Shown: one piece after another, positions 3,160 to 18,555 of the stretch
How positions within the stretch are numbered: position 1 is the first letter of the stretch
Layout: every line of letters begins with the position of its first letter
Source of the DNA: Ponticaulis koreensis DSM 19734
GTDB taxonomy: Bacteria; Pseudomonadota; Alphaproteobacteria; Caulobacterales; Hyphomonadaceae
Reading direction: 5' to 3'
DNA length: 64,000 bases
Assembly: GCF_000420665.1 (NCBI RefSeq)
Contig: NZ_ATVJ01000002.1
Location: 496,001 to 560,000 of the forward strand
Made by a program: the position numbers and the translations under genes
Notes under the pieces: model-generated
Database searches by the model: none
Told to the model about the DNA's origin: nothing
What the model saw: the letters and a program-made list of their open reading frames with translations, nothing else

Positions 3160-3779
3160 CAGATCGCACCTCCTGCTGGCAGAAGGAACATCCAGACCAT
3201 TTCAGGTTTGTCCGCGGGGCGCACGACGAGACGCACAGCGGGCGGCGAAGTAATCGGCGTTTCCGGCGTTGCCCGCCATTCACGCGTCCAGAGCTGGCCC
3301 TGATTGAACTCGGCATAGACGTCATCCAGCCCGTCCAGCAGGACTTCATCGCGGAAATCGTCATTGAAAAGCGGGTCCGCAAATGGTCGCGTCCTGCGAA
3401 TGAGGCGACCGTTTTCGAACACATAGCGCACAGCGAAAAGCCCGCTTCGCTCCTCCGTCAGGCCGGGATTGGTCCAGCCGTCGCGAACGAACGCGAACAG
3501 AAGCCCGGCTTCACCAATCCCACCGCCCAGAAAGGATGCGGATGGGTCCAGAACCGGCCGACTTTCAGAGGCGCGCGGCACCCATTGCAAAAGGTCTTCA
3601 CGAATACGCGTATGCGCCTGAGCATAGGCTTGCGTCTGCTCCGTGGAGGCTGCCAGCGCATCGCGGCTCCGGAAAGAGCTCAGCAGCACTGTCGTTCCCG
3701 CAATGGAGATGGTCGAAATGATGAAGAGCGACACCAGCACTTCGATGAGGGAGAAACCGTGATCAGAGCGCATGGTCAT
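3159..3779 (-). CDS. gspJ: Minor pseudopilin GspJ
   Basis: Minor pseudopilin forming the tip complex with GspI and GspK. The leader MTMRSDHG is followed by FSLIEVLVSLFIISTIS, a clear type IV prepilin cleavage site with Glu5 and a hydrophobic helix. The 206-residue length is typical. The C-terminal part carries the beta-rich domain ('RYVFENGRLIRRTRPFADPLF'). Overlaps gspI by 4 bases. Confidence 0.92.
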   Translation of the reverse strand: MTMRSDHGFSLIEVLVSLFIISTISIAGTTVLLSSFRSRDALAASTEQTQAYAQAHTRIREDLLQWVPRASESRPVLDPSASFLGGGIGEAGLLFAFVRDGWTNPGLTEERSGLFAVRYVFENGRLIRRTRPFADPLFNDDFRDEVLLDGLDDVYAEFNQGQLWTREWRATPETPITSPPAVRLVVRPADKPEMVWMFLLPAGGAI

Positions 3780-4159
3780 TCCCTCCGAAAGCCATATCGC
3801 AGAACAAGTGTCTGCTCTGAATCGCCGAGAGACACCCGAACCGTCACGCCCAAAAGCCCCGCCTCACTGGTATTCTGAATGTCGCGTCGCCATTCGAAAT
3901 CGTATCCGCCCATCACCGTTTCACCCTGAGAGCCACCCAGCGTAAGGCGATCATTCAGATAGGTTTCAACAAGAACATTTTCCGCAACAAATTCGGCATA
4001 TGTGCGCGCTGCCATCAGGCCAGAAGAGCGTATATTCTGTGTAATCAGCGTCATGGTCGCGATGGCGACGGTTGCGAAAATGGCGAGCGCTACCAAGCTC
4101 TCGAACAGTGAAAACCCCGCATCATTTTGATTGGCGGTTCGATTAGCGGGAAGCGTCAT
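3776..4159 (-). CDS. gspI: Minor pseudopilin GspI
   Basis: Minor pseudopilin nucleating tip assembly. The 127-residue product has leader ending NQNDAG then FSLFESLVALAIFATVAIATM, with Glu5. The C-terminal 'WRRDIQNTSEAGLLGVTVRVSLGD' fits the T2SSI domain. The start lies 17 bases inside the end of gspH, and the end overlaps gspJ by 4 bases. Confidence 0.92.
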   Translation of the reverse strand: MTLPANRTANQNDAGFSLFESLVALAIFATVAIATMTLITQNIRSSGLMAARTYAEFVAENVLVETYLNDRLTLGGSQGETVMGGYDFEWRRDIQNTSEAGLLGVTVRVSLGDSEQTLVLRYGFRRE

Positions 4160-4652
4160 GAATCGTCACCTCCCCTGTCTGGCTGATATCGATCCCGACA
4201 CTCTGATTGCGCCAGTTGAGTTCCAGCGAGGCTTCAGTCGCAAAGCCGGACGGATCGAACCAGATGTCCGGAAGGACCGGCGCGTCATCATCTTGCGTGG
4301 TGCGGAATACCGGCTCGTCATCGCCCTCAAGAACGACTTCAGTATCAGGATGGAGCGCAAACACCGGTGTATCTCGCATGCCTGTTGGCGCGCGCCAGAG
4401 ACCGCGATCAAATACAAGTACGCGAACCTCGTTCTCCTCTAGCAGGAGACCACGCGGCGCGCCGCCCAGTATGGCTTCCGTCCGTTGATTATTAAGAAGC
4501 CGGTCCAGCGTTCCACGCACTTCAATCAACGGTGTCGGTGAACGCGGTAGCGACAAGACAACAAAGCTCGACGCCAGCCCGACAATGAACAGGGCGACCA
4601 TGATCTCAATGAGGCTAAGCCCCGCATCAGATCTTAAATCGCCCGATTGCAC
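4143..4652 (-). CDS. gspH: Minor pseudopilin GspH (GTG start)
   Basis: Minor pseudopilin linking the tip complex to the major GspG shaft. It starts with GTG directly after the gspG stop (TAGGTG), with a GGGGAGAG ribosome-binding sequence inside the 3' end of gspG, implying translational coupling. The leader ends SDAG, then LSLIEIMVALFIVGLAS with Glu5. The 169 residues include the GspH/FimT-type beta domain. The end overlaps gspI by 17 bases. Confidence 0.9.
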   Translation of the reverse strand: MQSGDLRSDAGLSLIEIMVALFIVGLASSFVVLSLPRSPTPLIEVRGTLDRLLNNQRTEAILGGAPRGLLLEENEVRVLVFDRGLWRAPTGMRDTPVFALHPDTEVVLEGDDEPVFRTTQDDDAPVLPDIWFDPSGFATEASLELNWRNQSVGIDISQTGEVTIHDASR

Positions 4653-5132
4653 CTAGTTCTCTCCCCAGTTCCCGACATCAGCGTTGAGATCTTCACCGCC
4701 GGGACGGCCATCCGCACCAAGTGAGAAGATGTCGATACGACCGCGTTCACCCGGATTGCGGTACTGATACGGATTGCCCCAAGGGTCAGCTGGAATTTCA
4801 GAACGCAGCAGATAGCCTCCCTGCCGGTAGAGTTCTGCCCGGTTCAGCCCTGTTGGCGCTTCAACAAGCGCCTCCAGCCCCTGCTCTGTAGTTGGAAATG
4901 TCAGCATGTCGGAATTGTACTCGTACAGCGCCGTTTCGAGCGCCTGAATGTCGGTACGTGCTTTCTGAACCATAGCGCGGTCACGAGACGGCAATACGTT
5001 GATCATCACGACCGTTGCGAGCAAGCCCATGATGAATACGGCCACCATGATCTCTGTCAGGCTGAAGCCTTCCTCTCCGCGGTTGCGGCGCTGCGATTTG
5101 CGAGCGAGCAGAGTTTTTAGCCAGGTCATCAT
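4653..5132 (-). CDS. gspG: Major pseudopilin GspG
   Basis: Main subunit of the T2SS pseudopilus, which drives substrates through the GspD secretin. The leader ends NRGEEG, then FSLTEIMVAVFIMGLLATVV with Glu5. The C-terminus carries the conserved GspG core ('FPTTEQGLEAL', 'DPWGNPYQYRNPG', 'SLGADGRPGGEDLNADVGNW'), including the calcium-site region. Start chosen at 5132 (MMTW, 159 residues) behind AGGAGAAA; the second ATG at 5129 has better spacing and is equally possible. A longer upstream reading would run back into gspF. Confidence 0.93.
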   Translation of the reverse strand: MMTWLKTLLARKSQRRNRGEEGFSLTEIMVAVFIMGLLATVVMINVLPSRDRAMVQKARTDIQALETALYEYNSDMLTFPTTEQGLEALVEAPTGLNRAELYRQGGYLLRSEIPADPWGNPYQYRNPGERGRIDIFSLGADGRPGGEDLNADVGNWGEN

Positions 5133-5142
5133 TTTCTCCTGA

Positions 5143-6357
5143 TCAACCGATAACGAATGAATTGAGCTGCAAAATTGGCAGCATGATAGATAGAACAACT
5201 AGGGCGACCATGCCGCCGAGCACGAGAATAATCAGCGGCTCAAGCAGGCCGAGCGCTACCTTGGTCGCCGCTTCGAACTCGTCTTCCAGATATTTCGCGC
5301 CGCGCAGCAACATGTCGGGCAGCTGACCGCTCGCCTCACCACTGGAGGAGAGCTGTGTGATCAGCGCCGGAAAGACGCCGGTCGACTTCATGGCGCGGCT
5401 AATGCCTGCGCCCTCGCGGACCTTCACAATGATGTCTGACACCGCGTTTTGAAACACGAGGTTCCCGAGGCTGCTGCGTGCTGCGGATAGACTTTCCAGA
5501 ACCGGGGCACCATTGCCCAGCAGCGTAGAAAGGGTTCGCGCGAAACGGGCGGTATTCACCTGCGTCAGCATGGTGCCGATAACCGGCAATTTCAGCATCA
5601 CCCCGTCGACTATGCGCTTCACTTTCGGCAGCGCGAAAAGCCGCGTCAGGCCAAAGATGGCAGCAACGATGACGGCCAGAATGATCAGACCGTAATTTTG
5701 CAGAACATCGCTAATGCCGATGACGATACGCGTCAGCATTGGGAGTTCCTGATTCATCGTCGTGAACTGCTCGATGACCCGCGGCACAACAAAGGTCATC
5801 AGGCCAACCATGACGAGAAGCGCCGTGAAGGCCAGCACCATCGGGTAGATGAGCGCTGTCTGCACGGTTTGACGAACCTTGCGCGAGCGTTCCAGATACT
5901 CTGCAAGACGCTCAAGCACTGCGCCCAGATCACCAGACGCTTCGCCAGCGGCAACGATGGACCGATAAAGCCCGTTAAAGACCTTCGGATGTTCGCCCAA
6001 CGCTTCCGACAGGCGATAGCCCTCCGTCACAGAGTTCCGGATCGCGAGCAGCGTTTTACGTACACCCGGCTTTTCTGCCTGCGCGGCAGCTGCCGCGATG
6101 CTTTCCTCTACCGGTGTGCCGGAGCCAATCATAATCGCCCATTGGCGCGTAATGAGCAGCAAATCAGATTGCGAAACGGACGCAGCGCTGAGGCTGGATA
6201 GCGCTGACTTCGGCTTCTCTTTTGCCTCTTCCAGCTTGAGCGGCGTCATCTGGCGCACGCGAAGTTCGCGGCGCGCAGCCCGCGCTGAATCGGCAGCGAT
6301 TACGCCCTTTTCACGCTTTCCCTCCGGTGAGAGCGCGACATAATCAAATGTCGGCAT
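5143..6357 (-). CDS. gspF: Type II secretion platform protein GspF
   Basis: Polytopic inner-membrane platform protein that couples GspE to pseudopilus growth. The 404 residues hold two T2SSF domains (about 70-195 and 275-400) separated by membrane helices, with the signature 'GEASGDLGAVLERLAEYLE' in the first and 'GEASGQLPDMLLRGAKYLE' in the second. The N-terminal 'FDYVALSPEGKREKGVI' is typical. The start overlaps gspE by 14 bases. Confidence 0.95.
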   Translation of the reverse strand: MPTFDYVALSPEGKREKGVIAADSARAARRELRVRQMTPLKLEEAKEKPKSALSSLSAASVSQSDLLLITRQWAIMIGSGTPVEESIAAAAAQAEKPGVRKTLLAIRNSVTEGYRLSEALGEHPKVFNGLYRSIVAAGEASGDLGAVLERLAEYLERSRKVRQTVQTALIYPMVLAFTALLVMVGLMTFVVPRVIEQFTTMNQELPMLTRIVIGISDVLQNYGLIILAVIVAAIFGLTRLFALPKVKRIVDGVMLKLPVIGTMLTQVNTARFARTLSTLLGNGAPVLESLSAARSSLGNLVFQNAVSDIIVKVREGAGISRAMKSTGVFPALITQLSSSGEASGQLPDMLLRGAKYLEDEFEAATKVALGLLEPLIILVLGGMVALVVLSIMLPILQLNSFVIG

Positions 6358-7855
6358 TGCCCTCTCCTTCCGGGCGACAGACCCGAAGTACTTCTTCGGC
6401 TGTGGTGATGCCGTTCAAAACGTGTCTTACGCCATTCTGGAACAGGCTTTGCGCTTCGCGGAAGGCATAGTTTTCCATGTTCTGCTCAGACGCTTCGTCA
6501 TGGATCATACGCTTGAGCGAGCTGTCCACCGTGATCATCTCGAACACGCCTGCACGTCCGGAATAGCCCGAATTGCTACAAGAGAGGCAGCCTTTGGCGC
6601 GATAGAAAACAAGATCAGGTGATGGCGTGAGGCCCAGAGCACGAACTTCGAAGTCTTCTGGCGTATAGGCTTCACGGCAAGACGGGCACAGTCGGCGGAC
6701 AAGGCGCTGAGCCAGAACGCCGCGTAGCGTTGAGCTCAGCAGGAATGGCTCAATACCCATATCGCGAAGACGCGTCACAGCGGCAATCGCGGAGTTGGTG
6801 TGAACGGTTGAGAGCACCACGTGGCCGGTGAGCGAGGCCTGAACGGCGATCTCGGCCGTCTCGATGTCACGGATCTCGCCAACCATCACAACGTCAGGGT
6901 CCTGACGCAAAATAGCGCGCAGACCGGCAGCAAATGTGAGGCCGACTTTGGTGTTCACCTGCGTCTGGCCGACACCATCCAGACCATACTCGATCGGGTC
7001 TTCCACGGTGAGAATATTACGGGACTGGTCGTTCAGAAGAGTGAGGCCGGAATAGAGCGTTGTTGTCTTACCGGAGCCGGTCGGACCCGTCACAAGGATG
7101 ATGCCGTTCGGGCTCTTGAGCGCGGCTTTGAAGGCATCCAGCGTGGACTGGTCCATGCCCAGATCGAGCAGGTTCAGACGCGCTTGTTCCTTATCGAGAA
7201 GACGCAGAACCACGCGCTCGCCATACCGTGATGGCAGCGTGGAGACACGCACATCGATGGAGCGTCCACCGAGTGCCAGAGAGATACGGCCATCCTGCGG
7301 CATGCGTTTCTCAGCAATATCGAGGCGTGCCATGACCTTGATACGTGAGACAAGCAGCGGCGCCAGACGACGCGAGGGCGAGAGCACGTCCTGCAGAACA
7401 CCATCAATCCGGTAGCGGATGGAGAGCTTGTCTTCATATGGCTCGATGTGAATGTCGGACGCGCGGCGCTTGACCGCTTCGTAGATCAGACCGTTGATCA
7501 GACGAATGATCGGCGCATCGTCTTCAGCATCCAGAAGGTCAGCCGTCTGTGGAATCCCCTCAACGAGAGAGGCCAGGTCTTCACGGTCTTCAAGGCCGCT
7601 TTCCTGATACTCGTCATCAATGCCTTTGGCCGCATAAACGGTCGACAAAATCTGGTCGAACTCAGTTCGGGATAGCGACTTCAGATGTGCGACTGGACCG
7701 ACAGCGCGTCGCGCCTCAAGAACAGACAGGACGCGCGCACCCTCGCGAACACCAAGGGTCAGCGCTTCACCGCCTTCGGCTCCCGGTGGAAGCAGAAGCA
7801 CGCCGTGATCCTTGGCGAAATTATACGAGATGGTTGCTGCCCGTTGGCTGGCCAT
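6344..7855 (-). CDS. gspE: Type II secretion ATPase GspE
   Basis: Cytoplasmic hexameric ATPase powering the T2SS. The 503 residues contain the Walker A motif GPTGSGKTTT (Lys263), the Asp-box around 288, Walker B 'DPDVVMVGEIRD' near 319-330, the His-box 'STVHTNSA', and a tetracysteine zinc element (CPSC ... CLSC) near the C-terminus that distinguishes GspE from twitching ATPases. The N-terminal domain is short. It follows gspD with a 26-base gap and overlaps gspF. Confidence 0.96.
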   Translation of the reverse strand: MASQRAATISYNFAKDHGVLLLPPGAEGGEALTLGVREGARVLSVLEARRAVGPVAHLKSLSRTEFDQILSTVYAAKGIDDEYQESGLEDREDLASLVEGIPQTADLLDAEDDAPIIRLINGLIYEAVKRRASDIHIEPYEDKLSIRYRIDGVLQDVLSPSRRLAPLLVSRIKVMARLDIAEKRMPQDGRISLALGGRSIDVRVSTLPSRYGERVVLRLLDKEQARLNLLDLGMDQSTLDAFKAALKSPNGIILVTGPTGSGKTTTLYSGLTLLNDQSRNILTVEDPIEYGLDGVGQTQVNTKVGLTFAAGLRAILRQDPDVVMVGEIRDIETAEIAVQASLTGHVVLSTVHTNSAIAAVTRLRDMGIEPFLLSSTLRGVLAQRLVRRLCPSCREAYTPEDFEVRALGLTPSPDLVFYRAKGCLSCSNSGYSGRAGVFEMITVDSSLKRMIHDEASEQNMENYAFREAQSLFQNGVRHVLNGITTAEEVLRVCRPEGEGNADI

Positions 7856-7881: not shown

Positions 7882-9843
7882 TTATTGCGCCGGCGGCACT
7901 GTGCCGAGCACGTCCTGGACAAAGCGATCAATGTTAGACGTCTCAGCACCCGTGCTCATCAATTCCTGCGCGAGGATGTAGCGGTAACGCTGACTTGTCG
8001 TCATGCGCACATCCTCTGAATCGCGAACGACGGTCGGACGAATAAACACCATCAGATTGGTCCGGCTATTGGTTACGCCTTCAGACTGGAAGAGACGCCC
8101 GACACCCGGCAGATCGCCGAGGAACGGCACCTGAGAGGCGCTCACCGCGCTTGTCTGTTCAATCAAACCACCAAGCACAATGATCTCGCCATCATCCGCG
8201 ATGACTGTTGTCTCGATAGAGCGCTTGTTCGTGATGAACTCACCCGATGTGGATACCGCATCAGCGATGTTGGACGCTTCCTGATAGATGGAGAGACGCA
8301 CAGAATCGCCTTCACCGATCTGAGGCGTCACATCCAGCTGAACACCCACATTCTGGCGTTCAATCGTTCGGAACGCATTGGAGTTGCTATCGCTGAGCAC
8401 TTCGCCTGTCGTCACCGGTATTTCCTGGCCGACAATGATGGACGAGGTTTCGTTGTCGACAGCCATCAGCATTGGCGTGGAGAGAATGTTCGATTCAACA
8501 TCGTTCTCAACGGCATTCAGAATGACACCAAACAGCGTGTCTCCGCTCATGCCGCCACCACCGAGGGTCAAGCCTTCCAGACCGAGAAGAGACGAGATCG
8601 CTGCGCTCTGGAACGTGTTGCTGCCAGAGCCGGTCAATCCGCCATCAGAGACGAGCGCACCTGTGAGTGCCAGAATATTCGGCGCGGAACGCGAGAAATT
8701 CGTGGAGGCGAATGGAATGTCATTGCCTGTGCCTGATACAACAAACTGAAGGCCAAGTTCGTTGACCGCGTTGTCAGACATTTCAACAACCAGCGCCTCG
8801 ACCATCACTTGCGGACGGCGCACATCGAGTTCCTGAACCACACGCTCGAGCTGGTTCAGCATCTCATACTCTGCGCTCAGCACGAGTGAGTTAGTTGCTT
8901 CGTGGAATGAAATTGTCGGCGCAACACCACTACCTTCGCCAGCTCCGTTTTGCTGAGCAATCGCAGCGCTGAGGCGCTCCAGCACAGGGACGATCTCTTC
9001 GGCTTTGGCGTTAGAGAGCGGAAGCACGCGAATATTGTCGCGTACGCGTTCGGCAGCATCAAGCTCACGCGCCACAGTCAACGCCCGGGCCACTGCGTGT
9101 TCTTCACCGCGCAGAATGATAGAATTGGTCGTATCGGACGCAACAGCAGTAAAGTTGAGTGCAAACTCGTCATGCAGCCCGTTGAGAACGGTCTCCATCT
9201 CCTGCGCCGGTACGTTCTGAAGCGCTATGGTTTCAATCGTCGTGCCGTCCTCATCCAGCTGACGAACGACTTCACGGAGGCGCGGCATGTTGGACGCGTA
9301 ATCGACAATCACCAGCGTGTTGCTGTTGCGGTTGGCAACGACCTGCCCTGAGGGATTGAGGATCGGGTTCAGCATCTGCGCTGCCTCGACGGCACTGAAA
9401 TAATTGAGCTGCACGATCTGGGTGACAAAGCTGTCGCCGTTCGGGCCGCGGCTCTGAATGCCGGCAGAGCTGGAGGCAGTAGCTTCCGGGACGATCCGGT
9501 ATGTGCGATCGCCGGACGGGATAGCGACGAACTGGTGTACGCGAAGTGTCGCCAGGAACACGTCGAAAACCTCATCCGTCGTCAGCGCTGTCTGCGAGGT
9601 AACAGTTACGCGGCCACGCACCTGCGGATGCACGATGAATGTATAGCCCATGACGATAGACACATCCTCAATGAGGTCGGTGAGTTCGACATCATCAAGA
9701 TTGATACGGTGGCGCTGCTGAGCCGGCGTGTCCATCTGCGCCATGGCAATCGGTGAGACGAGAAGGCTACCAGCTGCGAGCGCCGCAAAAATGCCGCCCG
9801 ACACCACTGACGTTTTCAGAAAGTTCGCCATCTTAATTCCCAT
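7882..9843 (-). CDS. gspD: Type II secretion secretin GspD
   Basis: Outer-membrane secretin pore. A Sec signal peptide (to about AMAQ, near residue 36) is followed by N0 ('INLDDVELTDLIEDVS'), N1-N3 repeats and the secretin domain with 'ESNILSTPMLMAVDN', 'VGVQLDVTPQIGEGD' and 'VPFLGDLPGVGRLF'. Length is typical. The ATG at 9843 overlaps the gspC stop (TGATG); an in-frame ATG at 9831 (MANFLKTS) behind a GGGAAT sequence is an alternative. No pilotin gene is visible nearby. Confidence 0.95.
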   Translation of the reverse strand: MGIKMANFLKTSVVSGGIFAALAAGSLLVSPIAMAQMDTPAQQRHRINLDDVELTDLIEDVSIVMGYTFIVHPQVRGRVTVTSQTALTTDEVFDVFLATLRVHQFVAIPSGDRTYRIVPEATASSSAGIQSRGPNGDSFVTQIVQLNYFSAVEAAQMLNPILNPSGQVVANRNSNTLVIVDYASNMPRLREVVRQLDEDGTTIETIALQNVPAQEMETVLNGLHDEFALNFTAVASDTTNSIILRGEEHAVARALTVARELDAAERVRDNIRVLPLSNAKAEEIVPVLERLSAAIAQQNGAGEGSGVAPTISFHEATNSLVLSAEYEMLNQLERVVQELDVRRPQVMVEALVVEMSDNAVNELGLQFVVSGTGNDIPFASTNFSRSAPNILALTGALVSDGGLTGSGSNTFQSAAISSLLGLEGLTLGGGGMSGDTLFGVILNAVENDVESNILSTPMLMAVDNETSSIIVGQEIPVTTGEVLSDSNSNAFRTIERQNVGVQLDVTPQIGEGDSVRLSIYQEASNIADAVSTSGEFITNKRSIETTVIADDGEIIVLGGLIEQTSAVSASQVPFLGDLPGVGRLFQSEGVTNSRTNLMVFIRPTVVRDSEDVRMTTSQRYRYILAQELMSTGAETSNIDRFVQDVLGTVPPAQ

Positions 9844-10733
9844 CACTCGCCGACATTTACACGTATCGGCACAATCTGCCCGTTCCGTTCGACTTCAAAG
9901 TCAAAACGGGTTTCTTCCTGAAACACGTCATAGAGGTCGGATAAAGACTCATCTGACATGTCATATCCATTCACTGTGATCAGCTTATCGTTTACGCGTA
10001 GTCCAACACGCGCAAGACCTTCAGCATTCGATGTACCCTGAATTTGCAGCACGGTTGACCGGTCCGGCTGCACAACACGTCTGATGGTCACGTCACGATA
10101 GAAAGTTTCGAACGACCATTCATCCGCGCTGACAGTGTAATTCCCCGGGCTGCCGGCTTGAGGCGCTGCTTCAGTTGACGCAGCGCGTTCCGGATCATTA
10201 CGACTAATGGCATTGCGTTCATTCAGGTAAAGCGTTTCGCGCACGCCGTTACGCAGCAGGATAACCCGATCACTTTGGATTTGTTCGAGGCTGACGCCAG
10301 AGACAACGGTATCGCCTTCGTAATAGCGGCGTACTTCATTGTCAGGCGTATGAATGCGCACAAAGCTCTGCTCTGAATCGCCAAAAGCAAATACTGATCG
10401 AATCGACAGGTTCAGCGTCGTCTGAGGCGCCTCTTCCTCAACCGCCTCTACCTGACCGTCCAGCGTGCGCGTAAATGGATTGAAACTTCTGAAAATTGCA
10501 GGGCTGGCCGCGAAATCTGCAGACTGGCTTACTGATGTGCGCGCCGAAGCATTTGCGACAGGCACATCGACGAAAGCGGCGGGCGTGAGCACAGACCAGA
10601 AAAGCCGAGCCAGGAGCCAGGCACAGAGAATTACAAAAACGACGTCCAGAGCGATACCGACACCTCGCCCAATAGCGCCTTTACGCGCCGCGATATCGGC
10701 CAGTTTGCCAGTCAGTGCGGAGGACTCACCCAA
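9843..10733 (-). CDS. gspC: Type II secretion protein GspC with C-terminal PDZ domain (TTG start)
   Basis: Bitopic inner-membrane protein that contacts the GspD N0 domain and helps recognise substrates. The 296 residues have a cytoplasmic tail, a membrane helix at about 27-47, the homology region (around 115-175, 'SVFAFGDSEQSFVRI'), and a C-terminal PDZ domain ('GLARVGLRVNDKLITVNGYDM'). The reading frame opens at TTG (10733) just after an in-frame stop, and no ATG or GTG follows before the membrane helix, so a rare TTG start seems genuine. It is the first gsp gene after the TonB-dependent receptor. Confidence 0.88.
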   Translation of the reverse strand: MGESSALTGKLADIAARKGAIGRGVGIALDVVFVILCAWLLARLFWSVLTPAAFVDVPVANASARTSVSQSADFAASPAIFRSFNPFTRTLDGQVEAVEEEAPQTTLNLSIRSVFAFGDSEQSFVRIHTPDNEVRRYYEGDTVVSGVSLEQIQSDRVILLRNGVRETLYLNERNAISRNDPERAASTEAAPQAGSPGNYTVSADEWSFETFYRDVTIRRVVQPDRSTVLQIQGTSNAEGLARVGLRVNDKLITVNGYDMSDESLSDLYDVFQEETRFDFEVERNGQIVPIRVNVGE

Positions 10734-10760
10734 ATGTTTTCTCTGTCATTCTACTGTTCA

Positions 10761-10786
10761 AGCCGGGCGAGTGTCGTCGCCCGGCT
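10761..10786 (-). terminator. Intercistronic hairpin between TonB-dependent receptor and gspC
   Basis: Perfect 10-bp stem (AGCCGGGCGA / TCGCCCGGCT) with a 6-base loop, lying between the receptor stop (10841) and gspC. Read on the minus strand it is followed by TTGAAC, with no U-run, so it is more likely a leaky attenuator or an mRNA-stabilising structure than a full terminator. Confidence 0.55.
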
Positions 10787-10840
10787 CGGGTTTGTAAATT
10801 GTGCGAACACGATTGTGTACGAACAATAGTGGAAAACTGA

Positions 10841-13498
10841 TCAAAATTCGCGGCTGATGCCGAAAGAAATCGCTGGACCGAGACTGTAAGTGTCCACATC
10901 AACCGTGACACCACCGCCCTGTTGGTAGGCTTCAAAGTCATCGCCAAAAATGTTCGATGCGTTGAATGACAGCTCATATTCTGCACCACCAAGATCAACC
11001 GGACGGCTGTAGACAAAGTCCACAGTCATTGGCGGCTGCTCGATGATCGCAGGCAGACCATCAGCGATAGATTCGCCTGAACGGATACGCTCGCTTGCAT
11101 AGTTCAGAAGCACGTTCATTTCTGAACCGGTGTCATTGTTAGACAGACCGAGTTGCAGGTTGAACAGGTGCTCTGACTGGCCCTGAAGCTGGCGACCGTC
11201 TTCGATACGACCCGCAGCAGACACAGTGGACAGAACCGGCGACGTCGGCGTGCCGCCATTGATCGCGATTGTGCCGTCAGCGCTAATCTCAGAGTCAGAC
11301 CAAGTGTAGTTGGTCTTCACAGTGAAGTCGCGGTCACGGAAGAAGTCCCAGCTCGTCCAGTCGAACATTGGCAGGATCTGCTCGTATTCGACTTCGAAGC
11401 CGTAAAGCTCTGCGCTTGGAACGTTCACGAAGCTTGTGTTTGTTACGTTACCAATGCTGACGAGCACTTCCTCGATCGGGCTTTCCATCTCTTTGTAGAA
11501 CAGGCCGAAGGTGAGGAACTGACCGCGGTCGAAATAGTACTCGGCGCGGATGTCATAGTTGCTGATGGACGCGTTCTGAAGGAACGGGTTACCAACGAAA
11601 GATACGTCAGTTTCAGTGTTCACGAACTGCGTCGGCGCAAGCTCACGGAACTGTGGACGTGTCAGCGTTTCAGAGTAACCAAAGCGGATTTGGAAATCCT
11701 GGAATGGCGTAACGGTGATCGTCGCCGCTGGCAGGAAGTCTTCCTTGCTATCGCAGCTCTGGTCAGCCTGACGCTCGATACATGCCTCAACGAAGTTGCC
11801 TTCAGCCGGGCCGTTCAGCGTGATCGTGTCGACCGCCTGAATAGCAGACTCAAAGCGTCCACCAATGGCTGCACGAACAAATGGCGTAACCTGTGCATCA
11901 ACCTGAACATAAGCAGCATCGACTTCGAGCGTCGCGATATATGCTTCAGGGAATTGAATACCGCCCGTTTCCTGAACAGAGCCCGGACCACCATTGAACA
12001 GCGCGCTGTAGATGTAATCGAGACGAGTACCAGTCGCGTTTGGCAGACCACCGATTCCGGTGATGTCGAAAATACGGACAGATGCGAAACGGTCGTTCTC
12101 GACATATGAGTAACCTGCAAGCAGGTTTACTTCGCTGAACAGGTCACCGTTGAACTGTAGCGGGAGTTTGAAATCGAGGCCGAAATCTGTGGTGTCGTCC
12201 TGTACGTCAGAATACTGGATGCGGTTTGCAGCCGGAGATGACGACAGGATGAAGTCGCCATTCGCGTCTTCGCGGTAACGGTTAGACAGCTGGAACGGTG
12301 CATCACGCTGGGCTTCAGAGTAAGATCCGCGCCATTCAACTTCCAGATCCATCAGGTTCGGGAAGACGTGCTCGCCGCGAATCTGAGTTGTCCAGAGCTG
12401 GCGTTCGAACCACTCAAGAGAGTCGTCACGGAAGACACCTGCATCTTCTTCGGTTGTACCGATGATTGTACGCGCCTCTTTCTCAGAAGAGCGTGTACCA
12501 AGCGCAGTGAACTGCACTTCATGGTCCTGATAAAGCTCGAAGCCGATGACTGCGAGCGCGTTCACGCCAACAGTGTTCTGCGTAGAACGGCGGTCGCGCT
12601 GTTCTTCGGCTGCGATTTCAGGGCTGTTGATAGACGGACGCACGGCCTGTCCACGAATACCTTCGCGCGTAGACCATTCGTTTGAATATCCTACAGACCC
12701 AAGGATACCCATAGTGATATCGCTGCTGAGGTCATATGCATCACCAGCTGTGACGCCGAATGAGAAATTAGGGCCGACGTCACCTTCCTGCATCACGAGC
12801 AGAGAAGAATCGTCCGTGAAGGCGCGACCGAAATCGTAATTTTCCGATGCGATATCAAAGCCCGGAAGATCGCGGGCACCATCGTCAAATCCAAGTACGT
12901 CGGTATCAGAACCATGGTACAGAAGACCGGTTTGGAAACTTGTTTCTGTGTCGCCGCTAATGTCGAATGAAACGTTCAGGAAGCGATCGTCAGGAACGGC
13001 GCGTGTGCGGATGTCTACGAGACCACCACCGAACTCGCCTGGCAGGTTCGGAGAGTATGTTTTCTGCACCAGAATGCCAGAAAGAGCAGATGTCGGGAAA
13101 AGATCGAGCGGAGCAACACGGCGAAGCGGTGCCGGGCTCGGCAGCGGAGACCCGTTCAAGGTCGCGCTGGAATAACGCTCGTTCAGACCACGAACATAAA
13201 CGAATTTGTTGTCGGCTGTCGTAACGCCGGCCACACGGCGCAGAGCCGCCGCAGCATCACCATCGCCCTGAAGCTGGAAATCACCAGCGTCGAGAAGGCT
13301 TGAAACCTCTGAAGTCGAACGACGTTCATCCGGAATGTAGCGGTAGCGCACCTGAACTGTTTCGAGTGTACGCTGATCAGTTGCTTCTTCCTGTGGTGTT
13401 TCTACCGGCTCTGCTTCCTGAGCGAATGTCGGAAGGGCGAAAAGGAAAGACGCGCTGGTCAGAAGGACAAGTCGGGCACGCGAATTACGGGTGAACAT
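10841..13498 (-). CDS. TonB-dependent outer-membrane receptor
   Basis: Outer-membrane importer energised by TonB/ExbBD; the substrate is unknown. ATG at 13498 behind GGGGG gives 885 residues with a signal peptide ending LPTFAQ. A TonB-box-like ETVQVRYR lies near residue 45, the plug domain follows (about 60-165, 'AAALRRVAGVTT', 'VYVRGLNERYSS', 'LNGSPLPSP'), then a large beta-barrel ending in 'ISFGISREF' with a terminal Phe. The plug resembles the family with 'FPTSALSGILVQKTYSPNLPG' seen in Caulobacter-type receptors. The upstream neighbour is a large lipoprotein and the downstream neighbour is gspC, which suggests one expression unit; I infer that receptor and lipoprotein act on the same nutrient. 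Confidence 0.92.
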   Translation of the reverse strand: MFTRNSRARLVLLTSASFLFALPTFAQEAEPVETPQEEATDQRTLETVQVRYRYIPDERRSTSEVSSLLDAGDFQLQGDGDAAAALRRVAGVTTADNKFVYVRGLNERYSSATLNGSPLPSPAPLRRVAPLDLFPTSALSGILVQKTYSPNLPGEFGGGLVDIRTRAVPDDRFLNVSFDISGDTETSFQTGLLYHGSDTDVLGFDDGARDLPGFDIASENYDFGRAFTDDSSLLVMQEGDVGPNFSFGVTAGDAYDLSSDITMGILGSVGYSNEWSTREGIRGQAVRPSINSPEIAAEEQRDRRSTQNTVGVNALAVIGFELYQDHEVQFTALGTRSSEKEARTIIGTTEEDAGVFRDDSLEWFERQLWTTQIRGEHVFPNLMDLEVEWRGSYSEAQRDAPFQLSNRYREDANGDFILSSSPAANRIQYSDVQDDTTDFGLDFKLPLQFNGDLFSEVNLLAGYSYVENDRFASVRIFDITGIGGLPNATGTRLDYIYSALFNGGPGSVQETGGIQFPEAYIATLEVDAAYVQVDAQVTPFVRAAIGGRFESAIQAVDTITLNGPAEGNFVEACIERQADQSCDSKEDFLPAATITVTPFQDFQIRFGYSETLTRPQFRELAPTQFVNTETDVSFVGNPFLQNASISNYDIRAEYYFDRGQFLTFGLFYKEMESPIEEVLVSIGNVTNTSFVNVPSAELYGFEVEYEQILPMFDWTSWDFFRDRDFTVKTNYTWSDSEISADGTIAINGGTPTSPVLSTVSAAGRIEDGRQLQGQSEHLFNLQLGLSNNDTGSEMNVLLNYASERIRSGESIADGLPAIIEQPPMTVDFVYSRPVDLGGAEYELSFNASNIFGDDFEAYQQGGGVTVDVDTYSLGPAISFGISREF

Positions 13499-13566
13499 TG
13501 TGACCCCCAAAAATAAAAAAGAACGGGATTGCGATCCCAGTGACGTAGTTTTCGCAGGTGAGGAAT

Positions 13567-13589
13567 GGGGCCGGGAAATTCCCGGCCCC
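13567..13589 (-). terminator. Intercistronic hairpin between lipoprotein and receptor genes
   Basis: Perfect 9-bp GC stem (GGGGCCGGG / CCCGGCCCC) with loop AAATT, starting 8 bases past the lipoprotein stop. On the minus strand it is followed by ATTCCTC, so there is no U-run. It probably tunes or stabilises the upstream message rather than ending transcription fully. Confidence 0.55.
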
Positions 13590-13597
13590 TTCTCAGA

Positions 13598-16450
13598 TTA
13601 GTTTGTGACGTCGCCGTCTTCGTTGACAGTCCAGCCGCGGAACCATGTGTCGTTCGCATCTTCAACAGCACCGACATAAGTCGTTGCAGAGAGCGTACCG
13701 ATGCCTGTTACGTCGTATGCTGGAACAGCTGTTTCGTTCGCGCCAGGAACAACACCCGGACGCCCCGCACGGAATGTGAAGCCAGACAGAGTGTTTGTGC
13801 CTTCGACAATGTTATCGCCAGCTGCTGGTGCAGGTGGGTTGTCACCATCGTTGCGGAAGTTGTTGACGTTATCGAGGAAGATAGAGCGAAGCTCCAGCGT
13901 TCCGTTTGTGATGTTGTCAATCGTAGCCTGATCGTCCACGTCGATACCGTCGTCGAAGCCGACGATGATGCCGTTAGAGATCGTACCAGCCATACCGCGG
14001 CGCAGAACTGCACCAGCGTCAACCGCTACGTCACCAGAGTTGATGATCGTGAAGTTAGACAGACGTGGTGTAGAAACCGGCTGCAGATCGTTTGGACGCT
14101 GGTTGTCGCCCTCGATGCCGCGTGGGTCGCCAGACATGTCGCCTTCGCCCGGATAGACGATTGCGTACTGCATGGAGCCCTGCCAGCCGTCAGTCCAGTC
14201 GAGAGAGTCGTCACCGCAACCGAGCGCAACAACGTGGTCAGCGGAAACTGTACCACCGAAGAACTCGAAACAGTCATCAAGGTTGTTGAAGACCTGAACG
14301 TAGCTGACGTCTGTACCAGAACCTACGCCTTGGAATGCAATGCCGTTCAGCTCGTCTGTGTTTGTCAGACGTACGCCCGCATACTCAACACGAGTGTAGA
14401 AGAGTTGGCCGGAGTCATCGTCAGATGTCGCGCCGCCGAAGAAGCCGGAAGCACCCTCACCTGATTTCTCACAGTCAACCGTACCACCAACAGCTGTCGC
14501 ATCAGCACAGTCGTTGATTGGTGCGCGGCCGTTGATGACCAGACCACCCCAGATACCTTTTGTCGTGCGGTCAGTTGCAGTCGTTCCGTCGAGAACGCCT
14601 TTAGCTGTGAACACAACAGGGTCAGCTTCAGTACCGTTTGACAGGATGCGTGAACCACGAGCGATGACAAGGTAGTCGTCATTACCTTCAGACACGACAG
14701 TTACGCCAGCGTCGATTGTGAGTGTCGCAGAAACAGAACCTGGCAGTGGAGACGCAGGGTCAGCACCACGGTCAACGCCGATAAAGACAGGGTTCACGAG
14801 TTCGTAAACAATGTCGTCGCCGTTTGTGAGACGAAGGTCTGTTGTGATCGCGTTTGTACCGTCGATCTGGCAGAGCAGTTTTGTTTCGTTTGTCGCTGCA
14901 ACTGTGATGTCACCAGCAGCTGTCGTGCCTGTTGGACAAGCAACAACCGCTTCGTCGAACAGAGTACCCGGCAGAGCGAAGTTCGCCCAGCTATTGTCAA
15001 CATCTTCAGTTGGACCGAACGCACCGATATAGCCGATGTTCGCGCCGAAGAATGCCTGATCAGCCGCAGCAACCTGAGTTGGTGTAATGCTAGCTTCAGC
15101 AGAACCTGGGAAGAAGAGGTCAACGAGGGAGTTGTCACGCGCAACGACAGAAGCGTTGAACGCTGGAACGCCGTCACCGTCAGTTGCGAATGGCTCCGGA
15201 GAGTCTACGAGAATAGATTCAACAACCAGATCGCCGTTTGTGAAGCCGTCGAATGTCTGTTGATCGTCAACGTCGATACCCGTCGCGAAGTCAGTGATGA
15301 CACCGTTCACAAATACACCCTGTGTACCGCGACGGAGCAGCATGCCCTGCTGGTTGCCAGTTGTACCAACGAGCGTGAAGTTAGAGATGGTCGGGCTGGA
15401 AAATGGCTGAGCGTCGTTTGGACGCTGGTTGTCACCCTCAATACCGCGTGGGTCACCAGAAGAAGGAACTGTAGAACGGACTGCAGCGAACTGCAGACGG
15501 CCTTGCCAACCGTCGGTCCAGTCCAGAGAGTCGTCGCCAGCGCCTGTGATGACAACGTGTTTCGCGTCAACAGTACCACCGAACCACTCAACACCGTCGT
15601 CGAGATTGTTGTGAACCTGAATGTAATCAACGTCTGTGCCAGAACCAACGCCCTGGAACGCGATGCCGTTCAGCTCGTCATCGTTTGTGAGGCGTGCGCC
15701 AGCATACTCAACGATGAGGTAGTTCAGAACGCCTGAATCGTCGGCAGGGTCGCCGCCGCCGAAGAAGCCAGAAGCACCTTCACCGGATTTCTCACAAGCG
15801 GCTGTGCCGCCAGTTGCTGTTGCGTCAGAACAGTCGTTGATCGGTGCGAAACCGTTGATGACAAGACCACCCCATTGAGCGTTCGTGCCAGCTGCGATGA
15901 TAGAAGAACCCGTTTCTTCGTCGTTGACTGCTGCACGAGCAGTCATGCGAACAGGCGCCGCTTCCGTACCGTTTACAACAATCTGAGAACCACGTGTCAC
16001 AACCAGATAGTCGTCCGTCGCGTTCGCTGTGCCTGTAGAAGAAGCACCGAACAGAACTGCGCCGGCCTCAATTGTGAGGGTTGCGGAAGTGCCACCATCC
16101 TGACCAACGAATACAGGACCCTGGATAGCAACGTGTGTGTTTGCAGGGATTGTGACGTCTGCTGTCAGTTCGCCGCCTGTCGCTGAGCCGAGCGTACAAA
16201 CACTAACTGAAGAGAAGCCATCAGCAGCAACCGCGTCGAACAGTTCTTCTGAAGTGCCTGTCGGGCAGCCTGCATTAGGAACGAGGTTGATCGTCGCTGT
16301 TGGCGTTGGTGTTGGTGTTGGCGTCGGTGTCGGTGTTGGAACCGGCGCTGGAGCACCAGGCGATGAGATGTTGGTGTCGGAGCAACCGACAAGTGCAACT
16401 GCTGCGGCGCTTGCAAGAGCAAGTGCGCGCAGGGATCCTGCGATTTTCAT
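13598..16450 (-). CDS. Large lipoprotein with two tandem beta-helix-like modules
   Basis: 950-residue outer-envelope lipoprotein. The signal peptide ends ALVGC (Cys23) with Ser at +2, consistent with outer-membrane sorting; a Pro/Thr linker (about 35-52) follows. Residues 60-495 and 503-940 are two copies of one module: both have CPTGT, a later Cys, 'LTI(E/D)AG', 'GGLVING-APINDC', 'CEKSGEGASGFFGG', 'DELNGIAFQGVGSGTDV', 'DDSLDWTDGWQG' and 'GDPRGIEGDNQRPND'. Such modules resemble right-handed parallel beta-helix proteins often annotated as hypothetical in Bacteroidetes and Proteobacteria. SD GAGGGGG precedes the ATG. Position directly ahead of a TonB receptor and gspC suggests a surface-exposed partner of the receptor or a T2SS substrate. 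Function is unproven. Confidence 0.85.
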   Translation of the reverse strand: MKIAGSLRALALASAAAVALVGCSDTNISSPGAPAPVPTPTPTPTPTPTPTATINLVPNAGCPTGTSEELFDAVAADGFSSVSVCTLGSATGGELTADVTIPANTHVAIQGPVFVGQDGGTSATLTIEAGAVLFGASSTGTANATDDYLVVTRGSQIVVNGTEAAPVRMTARAAVNDEETGSSIIAAGTNAQWGGLVINGFAPINDCSDATATGGTAACEKSGEGASGFFGGGDPADDSGVLNYLIVEYAGARLTNDDELNGIAFQGVGSGTDVDYIQVHNNLDDGVEWFGGTVDAKHVVITGAGDDSLDWTDGWQGRLQFAAVRSTVPSSGDPRGIEGDNQRPNDAQPFSSPTISNFTLVGTTGNQQGMLLRRGTQGVFVNGVITDFATGIDVDDQQTFDGFTNGDLVVESILVDSPEPFATDGDGVPAFNASVVARDNSLVDLFFPGSAEASITPTQVAAADQAFFGANIGYIGAFGPTEDVDNSWANFALPGTLFDEAVVACPTGTTAAGDITVAATNETKLLCQIDGTNAITTDLRLTNGDDIVYELVNPVFIGVDRGADPASPLPGSVSATLTIDAGVTVVSEGNDDYLVIARGSRILSNGTEADPVVFTAKGVLDGTTATDRTTKGIWGGLVINGRAPINDCADATAVGGTVDCEKSGEGASGFFGGATSDDDSGQLFYTRVEYAGVRLTNTDELNGIAFQGVGSGTDVSYVQVFNNLDDCFEFFGGTVSADHVVALGCGDDSLDWTDGWQGSMQYAIVYPGEGDMSGDPRGIEGDNQRPNDLQPVSTPRLSNFTIINSGDVAVDAGAVLRRGMAGTISNGIIVGFDDGIDVDDQATIDNITNGTLELRSIFLDNVNNFRNDGDNPPAPAAGDNIVEGTNTLSGFTFRAGRPGVVPGANETAVPAYDVTGIGTLSATTYVGAVEDANDTWFRGWTVNEDGDVTN
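13631..14944 (-). repeat. Beta-helix module copy B of the lipoprotein
   Basis: Encodes residues about 503-940. It has two extra cysteines (Cys727, Cys744) that copy A lacks, so the copies have begun to diverge, although the core motifs remain identical. Confidence 0.85.
14966..16273 (-). repeat. Beta-helix module copy A of the lipoprotein
   Basis: Encodes residues about 60-495. Aligns by eye with copy B at an offset of about 442 residues, with long identical blocks such as CEKSGEGASGFFGG and GIEGDNQRPND. Confidence 0.85.
16299..16340 (-). repeat. Seven 6-bp repeats encoding the Pro-Thr linker
   Basis: Seven consecutive hexamers of the type GTTGGC/GTTGGT/GTCGGT on the plus strand, coding for a (Thr-Pro)n spacer behind the lipid anchor. 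Copy number may vary between strains without shifting the frame. Confidence 0.85.
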
Positions 16451-16655
16451 ACGTTGAGCCCCCTCAAATGAGCTTATGGCGAATTTGGTCGATCAGAGAG
16501 GCAGCGGCTTTTCTTTTATTCCTGCTACCCTCGGATAAGGGGCGATTAAGCGACGATCGTAACGGTTTTTTGACAGTCAGTGACAAATTTTGGTGCGCTC
16601 GGAATTAGATGTATTTTTGCAATACCGATTTGTGTTAGCGCAAACAAACCCTGAT

Positions 16656-17288
16656 TTATGGCATAAACGGCCACAAATCGCTGAAATTCCAGAGAAACCA
16701 TGCTGACATACACAAGGCCGGACCGAACGGAATGTACCCTGTCGGTTGAGTCTTTGATCGCCGCAGCAAAGTTTGCAACAAAAGAGACAAGAAGATTCCA
16801 AGGCCACTCGATATCATTAGAATAGGTGGCAGAACCTGCGGTCCCATCCAGCAGGCTATTGCAGCGAGCAGCTTTCCGTCGCCAAGACCGATTCCCTGTC
16901 GGCCAAGCAATTTTGTTGATGCCCATGCCAACGCAAGAATGCCAAGATACGCGACGAGGCCCGAAATTGCGTTTAGCGCTACAGCATACAGCGCGTTTGG
17001 CATTTGTCCCGCATACGTAAACAATAGTCCGCTCACCGCCATTGCGAGCGTGATCAGGTTTGGCAGACGGAATTCCCGCAGATCGAACCAGATCAGCGCC
17101 AGACACGCGACGCCGAGCACTAGCGACCCAACGCTCCAGAACGGCTCACTGAGAGGATACCCTGCATCGAAATGAAAGCCTGCAGCATAGATAAGCGCAA
17201 AGAAGACCACGCTCACGCCGAGCAGGAAACTACTCGTCCGAACCGATAATCCGCTCAGTTCTATTGAATTGTCGTGAGTTTTCGTCAC
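16656..17288 (-). CDS. Prepilin peptidase, A24 domain only (GspO/PilD class)
   Basis: Inner-membrane aspartic protease that cleaves pseudopilin leaders after Gly. The catalytic aspartates are visible as 'WFDLREFRLPN' (Asp69) and the GxGD motif 'GIGLGDGK' (Asp137). About six membrane helices and 'GYIPFGPAL' near the C-terminus fit family A24. The N-terminal methyltransferase/zinc domain of classical PilD/GspO is absent, giving about 210 residues, as in CpaA-type enzymes. Start taken at GTG 17288 behind AAGG; the longer GTG at 17324 is possible. No tad/cpa genes are nearby, so the T2SS pseudopilins are the likely substrates. A 205-base AT-rich gap separates it from the lipoprotein. Confidence 0.85.
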   Translation of the reverse strand: MTKTHDNSIELSGLSVRTSSFLLGVSVVFFALIYAAGFHFDAGYPLSEPFWSVGSLVLGVACLALIWFDLREFRLPNLITLAMAVSGLLFTYAGQMPNALYAVALNAISGLVAYLGILALAWASTKLLGRQGIGLGDGKLLAAIACWMGPQVLPPILMISSGLGIFLSLLLQTLLRRSKTQPTGYIPFGPALCMSAWFLWNFSDLWPFMP

Positions 17289-17343
17289 TGTTGCAGCCTT
17301 CGCGCCGATCCAGAGTAGCGTCACAATAATGGGAGATGAGAGA

Positions 17344-18555
17344 ATGTCAGCCGATTTTGCAGTGGATGGAACATTTGATCCTGAATTTGGCGGCGTCGCT
17401 GATGCCTTTTCTCAGAACTTTGAATCGCGTGGCGAAGTCGGCGCATCTCTCTGCGTTTATAAAGACGGGGAATGTCTGGCAGACCTGTGGGGCGGAACAG
17501 CCGATCTCAAAACCGGCACGCCCTGGACGAAAGATACCGTCTCTATTGTGTTCTCCTGCACAAAAGCCGCCACAGCGCTCTGCGCGCATCTTCTCGTGCA
17601 ACGTGGCCAGTTGAACTTGAATGCACCGGTTGCTGACTACTGGCCGGAATACGCCTGCAACGGAAAAGAAGATACGACCGTTCTGATGATGCTGAACCAT
17701 TCAGCGGGCGTGGCTTCCTTCCATGATGCGGTAGAACCGGGCGCACTTCTGGACTGGGATAAAGCTGTATCTCTGCTCGCCAACGAAACGCCATGGTGGG
17801 AACCGGGTACACGGAACGGCTATCATGCCCTCACCTTCGGCTGGACGGTAGGAGAACTTGTTCGTCGTGTTTCCGGAAAATCACTCGGCGATTTCTTTCG
17901 CGAAGAACTCGCAGAACCAATGGGCACAGATTTCTGGATTGGACTGCCTGAAGAACACGAACCTCGTGTCGCGCCGATGATCCCGTTCAAACCAGAGCCG
18001 GGTGCACCGCTTTCTCCGTTCACGCAGAAAATGCTGACTGATCCGGAATCGCTCCAGCATAAGAGCTTCTTCAACAATGGCGCACTGCAGATCGATAGTC
18101 GCGACGGGCGCGCAGCCCATCTCGGCGGCGCCGGCGGCGCATCTAACGCTCGCGGTATGGCTCAGTTATTTCTTGCGCTGTCACCATCCCATCCTTCCGA
18201 CTTCTATTCCAACGCACGCGTTGGCGCGATGGGATATGTTTCGACGGCAACGCGCGATGACGCCACACTGATGATCCCGACCCGCTTCGGTCAGGGCTTT
18301 ATGTGCAGCATGGATAACCGCCATCTGCGTCACGGACATGATTCATCCTTCATCATCGGGCGTAACGCGTTCGGCCATGTGGGCATGGGTGGCAGTTGTG
18401 TATTCTTCGATCCCGATGCAGATCTCATCTTCGCCTATTCGATGAACCGGATGGGCGGCGGCATTCTTCTGAACCCGCGCGGACAGTCTTTGATCGACGC
18501 CACCTATGAAGCGCTGGGCTATTCAAGCAATGCCGCAGGATATTGGATGTATTAA
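17344..18555 (+). CDS. Serine hydrolase of the class-C beta-lactamase/EstB family
   Basis: Cytoplasmic esterase or amidase-like enzyme with a beta-lactamase fold. 403 residues with the S-x-x-K nucleophile motif SCTK (Ser71, Lys74) and a Tyr at 160 in 'GYHALTFGW' that fills the Y-x-N position of class C. 'GVGHVG'-like 'FGHVGMGGS' near the C-terminus replaces the KTG triad, as in EstB-type esterases. There is no signal peptide. Start at ATG 17344 (GGGAG upstream) rather than ATG 17329, which lacks an SD. It diverges from the prepilin peptidase with only about 55 bases between starts. The natural substrate cannot be told. Confidence 0.88.
   Translation: MSADFAVDGTFDPEFGGVADAFSQNFESRGEVGASLCVYKDGECLADLWGGTADLKTGTPWTKDTVSIVFSCTKAATALCAHLLVQRGQLNLNAPVADYWPEYACNGKEDTTVLMMLNHSAGVASFHDAVEPGALLDWDKAVSLLANETPWWEPGTRNGYHALTFGWTVGELVRRVSGKSLGDFFREELAEPMGTDFWIGLPEEHEPRVAPMIPFKPEPGAPLSPFTQKMLTDPESLQHKSFFNNGALQIDSRDGRAAHLGGAGGASNARGMAQLFLALSPSHPSDFYSNARVGAMGYVSTATRDDATLMIPTRFGQGFMCSMDNRHLRHGHDSSFIIGRNAFGHVGMGGSCVFFDPDADLIFAYSMNRMGGGILLNPRGQSLIDATYEALGYSSNAAGYWMY

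Follow-up and report, generated by a model that had tools for sequence, protein, structure and literature searches.

The 64,000-base stretch of Ponticaulis koreensis DSM 19734 analysed here (contig NZ_ATVJ01000002.1, positions 496,001 to 560,000; the window) carries a gene cluster that lies entirely on the minus strand and runs, in order, from a prepilin peptidase through a two-module lipoprotein and a TonB-dependent receptor to gspC–N of a type II secretion system (T2SS). The lipoprotein is of the type of Caulobacter ElpS, and we consider it probable that ElpS-type loci encode a lipoprotein–TonB transporter pair for a phosphorus compound, controlled by the phosphate (Pho) response and standing beside a separable T2SS. 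The gene order, the single strand, the lipobox with Ser at +2 and the Thr-Pro spacer had been reported in an initial annotation made from the sequence, and open reading frames (ORFs), Pfam matches and the sequence itself confirmed them. The features are listed below in the direction of transcription, with positions counted in the window.

16656-17324, minus strand: prepilin peptidase (GspO-like), 222 residues; PF01478 (Peptidase_A24), E 3.8e-15
16559-16576, minus strand: PhoB-box-like site CTGTCAAAAAACCGTTAC, 126 bases 5' of the lipoprotein start; p = 0.007, 1000 dinucleotide shuffles
13598-16450, minus strand: ElpS-like lipoprotein, 950 residues, two predicted parallel beta-helix modules; ORF and structure model
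16385-16450, minus strand: lipoprotein signal peptide, residues 1-22; from the sequence
16355-16384, minus strand: lipobox Cys23 and conserved SPG box (CSDTNISSPG); from the sequence
16295-16354, minus strand: Thr-Pro spacer, rich in PTP; from the sequence
14981-16273, minus strand: lipoprotein module 1; alignment of the halves
13601-14950, minus strand: lipoprotein module 2; alignment of the halves
13511-13597, minus strand: structured lipoprotein–receptor gap with a perfect hairpin at 13567-13589 and a T-run hairpin at 13511-13539
10841-13510, minus strand: TonB-dependent receptor, 889 residues; PF00593 and PF07715; the ATG at 13498 is the likelier start
10760-10787, minus strand: hairpin in the structured gap between receptor and gspC
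9843-10733, minus strand: gspC; PF11356 (T2SSC)
7882-9846, minus strand: gspD secretin; TIGR02517, 524 bits against a cut-off of 351
507-7855, minus strand: gspE, F, G, H, I, J, K, L and M; Pfam except gspH
1-510, minus strand: 5' part of gspN, which crosses the left window edge; L009:9767-10510, PF01203, E 1.3e-24

The lipobox of the lipoprotein reads LVG|C23 and is followed by SPG at residues 30-32 and then by the PTP-rich spacer. Its two halves were 49% identical over 447 columns (E 3e-121), so the duplication that the initial annotation had recognized is not due to chance. The protein matched no Pfam or NCBIfam family, and a sequence search of the PDB turned up two poor hits (E 0.49 and E 0.69), both in unrelated proteins, which were discarded. 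The structure model (predicted local distance difference test, pLDDT, 88; predicted template modelling score, pTM, 0.63) shows two all-beta modules and aligns to parallel beta-helices. In a second look the best matches were NosD (7osf, Z 22.7, root-mean-square deviation (rmsd) 3.5, 281 residues aligned), polygalacturonases (1nhc, Z 19.2, rmsd 3.5, 270 aligned), alginate epimerases and phage tailspikes. In the Foldseek search itself, no PDB entry reached E <= 0.001 for this model. We assigned no enzyme class, because the structural matches cover many different beta-helix proteins. Pfam gave no SusD match, and the structures among the matches listed were beta-helices, other families being possible beyond them.

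The two-module form is common: in the set used for the module tree, 53 proteins had at least two modules (one has three) and 42 had a single one. In 17 of these 53 the closest neighbour of a module lay within the same protein, and others paired first with first and second with second modules. A single ancient duplication was considered; independent duplications and homogenisation look alike in the tree, and the within-protein pairing suggests repeated duplication or homogenisation. One ElpS-type module was also seen inside a 2832-residue open frame (L149:4254-12749, on contig 8 of genome G303).

The receptor has a plug (PF07715) and a barrel (PF00593), both over cut-off. Its model (pLDDT 85, pTM 0.82) was nearest to BtuB (2guf, Z 28.8, rmsd 2.9, 530 aligned), next to BtuB1 of the BtuB1–BtuG1 complex (8blw, Z 27.4, rmsd 3.3, 587 aligned), and was also close to HasR (5c58, Z 26.7, rmsd 3.6, 585 aligned). 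Judged by this model, it is a standard TonB receptor.

The neighbourhood of the lipoprotein was compared among relatives, with L numbers as locus codes and G numbers as genome codes. The relative set comprised 79 loci taken from the best 80 of at least 583 lipoprotein matches, and therefore leans to close relatives; 76 of them were scored. A second set of 18 scored loci was hand-picked in addition. A receptor was counted as directly downstream when it lay on the same strand within 600 bases, and a T2SS as directly after when two or more of gspC–G followed, in loci with at least 3 kb beyond the receptor (56 in the relative set). The linkage count omits L061, L083, L140 and L149; the covariation analysis and the module tree omit L061, L100, L140 and L149. 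ORFs with fewer than 300 module residues were dropped from the linkage, broad SPG and PhoB-site counts. An 87-locus set, which served the PhoB-site and broad SPG counts and supplied the GGG rows, also drops ORFs lacking a usable start or lipobox, and the 87-row and 80-row sets keep the near-duplicates L061/L062, L086/L140 and L099/L100. GspD was called with TIGR02517 at its curated cut-off of 351 bits.

We found that the linkage of lipoprotein, receptor and T2SS is conserved and strong, in line with a check on relatives that had been set beforehand. The receptor lay directly downstream of the lipoprotein in 60 of the 66 relative-set loci with room for it, and the T2SS came directly after the receptor in 36 of 56, with gspC–G genes anywhere in the locus in 39 of 56. 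In the hand-picked loci the receptor was downstream in all 18, with the T2SS directly after it in 11 and anywhere in 12. A same-strand GspO-like gene preceded the lipoprotein less often (7/56 relative-set and 4/18 hand-picked loci). The same order of lipoprotein, receptor and T2SS was present in Caulobacter sp. L115 and in Xanthomonas L095, and the closest relatives, a Hyphomonadaceae metagenome-assembled genome (MAG; UBA1849) and a Ponticaulis MAG, were 95-100% identical to the window in gspC–G. Within the window's family, 92 of 101 genomes had a lipoprotein match and 94 of 101 had GspD over cut-off. Of 289 genomes sampled across the class, 14 matched the lipoprotein, and nine remained after five were removed; GspD was over cut-off in six of these nine vs 34 of the 280 others. 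The matches removed, as well as one at a second place in the window's own genome, were N-terminal or short and were rejected as homologues because they reflected Pro/Thr linkers or chance (in this check L021 had no readable frame). Two Xanthomonas frames were found in pieces, a receptor (L101:11227-14010) and a lipoprotein (L106:9530-11272), through decay or sequencing error.

The pair can also be separated from the T2SS. An adjoining lipoprotein and receptor occurred without GspD over cut-off in four genomes, G125, G207 and G276 (completeness estimate 100, 1-5 contigs) and G301 (99, 180 contigs). Their best GspD-profile matches reached 105-119 bits and resemble other secretins. GspL_C was not found in these four genomes either, which is a weak test that also misses G010, a genome with GspD. 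The SPG box was intact in all four (L144, L145, L146, L158). Retention of the pair therefore does not depend on the T2SS. Covariation of distances across 48 loci pointed the same way. Spearman's rho was highest for GspD–GspE (0.75), followed by lipoprotein–receptor (0.64), receptor–GspD (0.37) and lipoprotein–GspD (0.31); given GspE, the partial values of the last three were 0.61, 0.27 and 0.19, respectively. The partial rho values of lipoprotein–receptor and lipoprotein–GspD each exceeded 999 label permutations, and since the loci are related to one another, the contrast of the values counts for more than the p-values. Transfer of a lipoprotein–receptor cassette was considered for G316, where GspD and GspE are 75% and 79% identical to the window clade while the lipoprotein and receptor are 43% and 37% identical. 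It is not claimed, because contamination of this genome stands at 6% and a 4,904-base contig carries a second lipoprotein, which resembles that of the window.

The SPG box after the lipobox is, by its distribution among lipobox sequences, specific to this family. SPG stood within about 10 residues of the Cys in 57 of 64 ElpS-like lipobox ORFs vs 2 of 28 other lipobox ORFs from the same loci, and a broader count gave 72 of 87 loci. Of the two exceptions, one (L083) reads into masked letters immediately ahead of the ElpS-like frame and could be the start of that frame; the other (L094) is a frame of 125 residues that lies 5' of an ElpS-like protein. In Acinetobacter, T2SS lipoproteins carry a Gly/Ser- or Asn/Asp-rich stretch, with GGG or ND(N/D), immediately behind the lipobox Cys (PMC12802150). 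The SPG box lies farther from the Cys than these motifs. The window stretch CSDTNISS has neither GGG nor ND(N/D), a motif derived in Acinetobacter, and contains three G/S and two N/D residues. Among the 68 lipoprotein starts with an SPG match, to which this count was restricted, 16 had GGG right after the Cys. As a mark of T2SS export in the ElpS family, GGG was not borne out (10/43 with an adjoining T2SS, 6/25 without).

Caulobacter ElpS is induced by phosphate starvation (PMC2996285), and phosphate control links the genes better than delivery by the T2SS does. PhoB boxes were scored against a consensus that we take to be two CTGTCAT half-sites with a period of 11, and the scores were tested against dinucleotide shuffles of the 170 bases before the lipoprotein and the 150 before the receptor. 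In the window, the site at 16576-16559 was significant for the 170-base region before the lipoprotein, while this test gave no significant PhoB-like site before the receptor, gspC or gspO; PhoB over cut-off is encoded in the genome. Across loci, a PhoB-like site with p < 0.05 preceded the lipoprotein in 47 of 87 (p < 0.01 in 30), the receptor in 4 of 80 (p < 0.01 in none) and gspC or gspD in 13 of 50 (p < 0.01 in 8). An earlier run with 300 bases before the lipoprotein gave 42 of 87. Shared regulation at the head of the operon, as initially proposed, is therefore not supported: in the window the Pho-like site stands before the lipoprotein and not before the receptor, gspC or gspO, and in Caulobacter the receptor gene cc0171 was constitutive and elpS induced (PMC2996285).

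Pho control has independent support from regulatory genes for the phosphate response, which adjoin the pair in several gammaproteobacteria. phoB and phoR stand next to it, divergently, in L110, L117, L118, L120 and L137 (three Rheinheimera, one Arsukibacterium MAG and one gammaproteobacterial MAG), and these loci contain no T2SS gene. PhoR of L110 matched PF11808, PhoB of L117 and PhoR of L137 were over NCBIfam cut-offs, and the remaining PhoB and PhoR proteins were at least 68% identical to those of L110. In SAR86, a PhoR-like kinase gene lies directly 5' of the lipoprotein in 5 of 7 loci (L114, L119, L121, L123, L130), with a PhoB-like gene 5' of the kinase where the contig reaches that far (L114, L121, L123, L130); in L114, L123 and L130 the receptor and gspD, E, F and G follow the lipoprotein on the same strand. 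For L114 and L123, the best match of the regulator was PhoB and that of the kinase PnpS, with PhoR third, all below cut-offs. Among 16 neighbour proteins scanned in L145, L146, L158 and L071, which cover part of each locus and have no T2SS nearby, there was no phosphatase, phytase or phoBR. Rheinheimera L110 was the only one of the T2SS-free loci with scanned neighbours to show phosphate genes. PhoB- and PhoR-like genes were also seen beside a module protein with no adjoining TonB receptor in L131 (Myxococcota) and L135 (Lysobacterales), with PhoR of L135 over cut-off.

Both gaps flanking the receptor gene in the window folded better than shuffles (z -3.87 between lipoprotein and receptor, z -5.79 between receptor and gspC), and z was below -2 in 67 of 71 lipoprotein–receptor gaps and 25 of 30 receptor–gspC gaps across loci. 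A scan of the window region found 11 terminators against a shuffle mean of 8.3 and 3 promoters against 3.7, no excess of either, so the hairpins are not proven terminators. One reading of the structured gaps is partial termination or messenger RNA processing.

As for the rest of the cluster, the T2SS genes at the locus comprise GspC, D, E, F, G, I, J, K, L, M and N. The window proteins of gspE, F, G, I, J, K, L and M were each matched in Pfam, and gspH was assigned only by its position and N-methylation motif. Elsewhere in the genome, a second GspD-like secretin (G000:C1:1759967-1761613) scored 309 bits, below the cut-off, so a second T2SS-like system may exist. Beside the prepilin peptidase starts a divergent gene for a beta-lactamase-fold protein (17329-18555, plus strand; PF00144), nearest to LipL and below cut-off.

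The arrangement is not new. In Caulobacter, elpS (cc0170) and the TonB receptor gene cc0171 lie immediately upstream of gspC–N, and similar clusters were noted in Xanthomonas campestris, Sphingomonas alaskensis and Hyphomonas neptunium (Le Blastier et al. 2010, PMC2996285). The same authors described ElpS as a membrane lipoprotein that is fully protease-accessible on cells with gspC–N deleted and whose release into the medium requires the T2SS, perhaps via a secreted protease; overproduction of ElpS was accompanied by more secreted alkaline phosphatase activity, and an interaction of ElpS with Cc0171 was already proposed. The window locus, likened here to that of C. crescentus by description, shares this layout. 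It differs in its two-module lipoprotein of 950 residues (the secreted Caulobacter protein is about 50 kDa) and in gspO, which leads the cluster in the window and follows gspN in opposite orientation in Caulobacter. In Flavobacterium johnsoniae, the ElpS-related FI/FII lipoproteins are induced by Pi (inorganic phosphate), two stand beside Pi-induced TonB transporters, and one such pair lies inside a phoBR cluster (PMC8115612). These resemble the window pair, again by description, in setting an ElpS-related lipoprotein beside a TonB transporter; they belong to Bacteroidota, and no T2SS appears in the gene clusters described. The two-gene layout of lipoprotein and TonB transporter is also that of SusCD/PusCD, BtuBG and TbpAB, and the receptor model, closest to BtuB, resembles BtuB1 of the BtuB1–BtuG1 complex as well; in contrast, the window lipoprotein is a predicted parallel beta-helix, a comparison made through the PDB search only. 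The T2SS-exported lipoproteins PulA and InvL share with the window a lipobox protein and a T2SS that contains gspN (PMC12802150), but the window protein has no GGG or ND(N/D), although some relatives have GGG, and its homologue is surface-exposed without the T2SS. A limited literature search found no later study of the ligand of an ElpS-type protein.

The gene arrangement and the idea of a lipoprotein–receptor pair are thus in print (PMC2996285). The present analysis adds that the two-module form is common, that the pair is kept without the T2SS, that the SPG box is family-specific, that the Pho-like site goes with the start of the lipoprotein and not of the receptor, and that phoBR genes neighbour the pair in gammaproteobacteria.

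The lipoprotein and receptor would form a functional unit, with the T2SS as a common, separable neighbour. Under phosphate starvation PhoB would switch on the lipoprotein, as the site and the Caulobacter homologue suggest, and the protein would get to the cell surface without strictly requiring the T2SS, as shown for the homologue. There, one or two beta-helix modules may bind a phosphorus compound, probably a polymer or a phosphate ester, and the adjacent TonB receptor would take this compound over from the lipoprotein and import it. The T2SS probably contributes to the same response, through secreted hydrolases and, as in Caulobacter, by permitting release of the lipoprotein, and would not be an obligate export route.

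Several observations weigh against this reading. PhoB control in P. koreensis is deduced from a motif match, the phosphorus compound is a candidate ligand, and gspC in the window has no PhoB-like site. In Caulobacter, no change in intracellular phosphate was detected by the method used, cc0171 was expressed equally in rich and poor media, and the T2SS was made irrespective of conditions (PMC2996285); common Pho control consequently fits poorly. Six of the 66 loci lacked an adjoining receptor (L107, L126, L129, L131, L135, L138), and gspN, needed for lipoprotein export in Acinetobacter, is present at the locus. Moreover, the lipoprotein was found in 89 of 94 family genomes with GspD vs 3 of 7 without (Fisher p = 0.001; both in 89, GspD alone in 5, lipoprotein alone in 3, neither in 4). 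Of the three, G301 is the clean case, because G289 holds no more than a fragment, and a GspD-like match in G377 scores 300 bits. GspD was likewise over cut-off in all 14 tested relative-set genomes whose pair has no T2SS after it, including L122, where T2SS genes lie upstream within the same locus. Because of this association and these 14 genomes, some dependence of the pair on the T2SS is possible.

The initial annotation had pictured a secretion-assisted uptake system. Its part in which the lipoprotein works with the TonB receptor is supported, given the 60 of 66 adjoining receptors and the partial rho of 0.61. Its part in which the T2SS delivers the lipoprotein is not, since Caulobacter ElpS is exposed without gspC–N and the pair is kept in four genomes without GspD; 'T2SS-assisted' may rather be understood as common Pho control or as release. 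It is rather unlikely that a T2SS with GspN nevertheless brings the lipoprotein to the surface to supply the receptor there. The strong linkage to gsp genes, the gspN gene, the genome-level association with GspD and the dependence of T2SS lipoprotein export on GspN, demonstrated for PulA and in Acinetobacter (PMC12802150), would all fit such a route, as would the GGG of 16 of 68 SPG-bearing lipoproteins and the S, D or N at 5 of the 7 residues after the window Cys. The surface exposure of Caulobacter ElpS is independent of the T2SS (PMC2996285), however, an intact SPG box accompanies the pair in four genomes without GspD over cut-off, the window lacks both motifs, and GGG is equally frequent with and without a T2SS.

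It is improbable that the lipoprotein is an enzyme with a beta-helix fold, whether lyase, hydrolase or phosphodiesterase, and provides the receptor with phosphate or sugar phosphates that it sets free. Its predicted fold is that of polysaccharide lyases, epimerases and polygalacturonases, Asp and Glu residues are invariant across ten aligned modules, and more secreted alkaline phosphatase activity went with ElpS overproduction in Caulobacter (PMC2996285); but the fold also occurs in non-enzymes such as NosD and adenovirus LH3, and Foldseek gave no match at its threshold. Quite improbable is a purely regulatory neighbourhood, in which lipoprotein, receptor and T2SS are brought together by the Pho response and the first two do not interact directly. 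It would account for the Pho-like sites before lipoproteins and some gspC/D genes, and the T2SS has been placed in the PhoB regulon of Caulobacter (PMC11208175), whereas the pair occurs together without the T2SS and covariation is stronger within the pair than between it and the T2SS. A variant built on the preferred lipoprotein–receptor pair, and a long shot, is that the lipoprotein is a shed phosphorus carrier: first shown on the surface next to its TonB receptor and then released with help from the T2SS, it would capture phosphorus compounds away from the cell and bring them back to the receptor. HasA returns heme to its receptor HasR in an analogous way. The SPG box would then be a signal for surface sorting or receptor docking, with an export route independent of the T2SS.

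The uptake of large or bound phosphorus compounds in phosphate-poor waters is poorly known, and the lipoprotein–receptor pair is a good candidate for it. The pair, with signs of Pho control, spans from Hyphomonadaceae to SAR86 and Rheinheimera, and relatives in Flavobacterium have been published. That the pair can be parted from the T2SS also undercuts an intuitive, though probably mistaken, view of how the lipoprotein gets to the cell surface.

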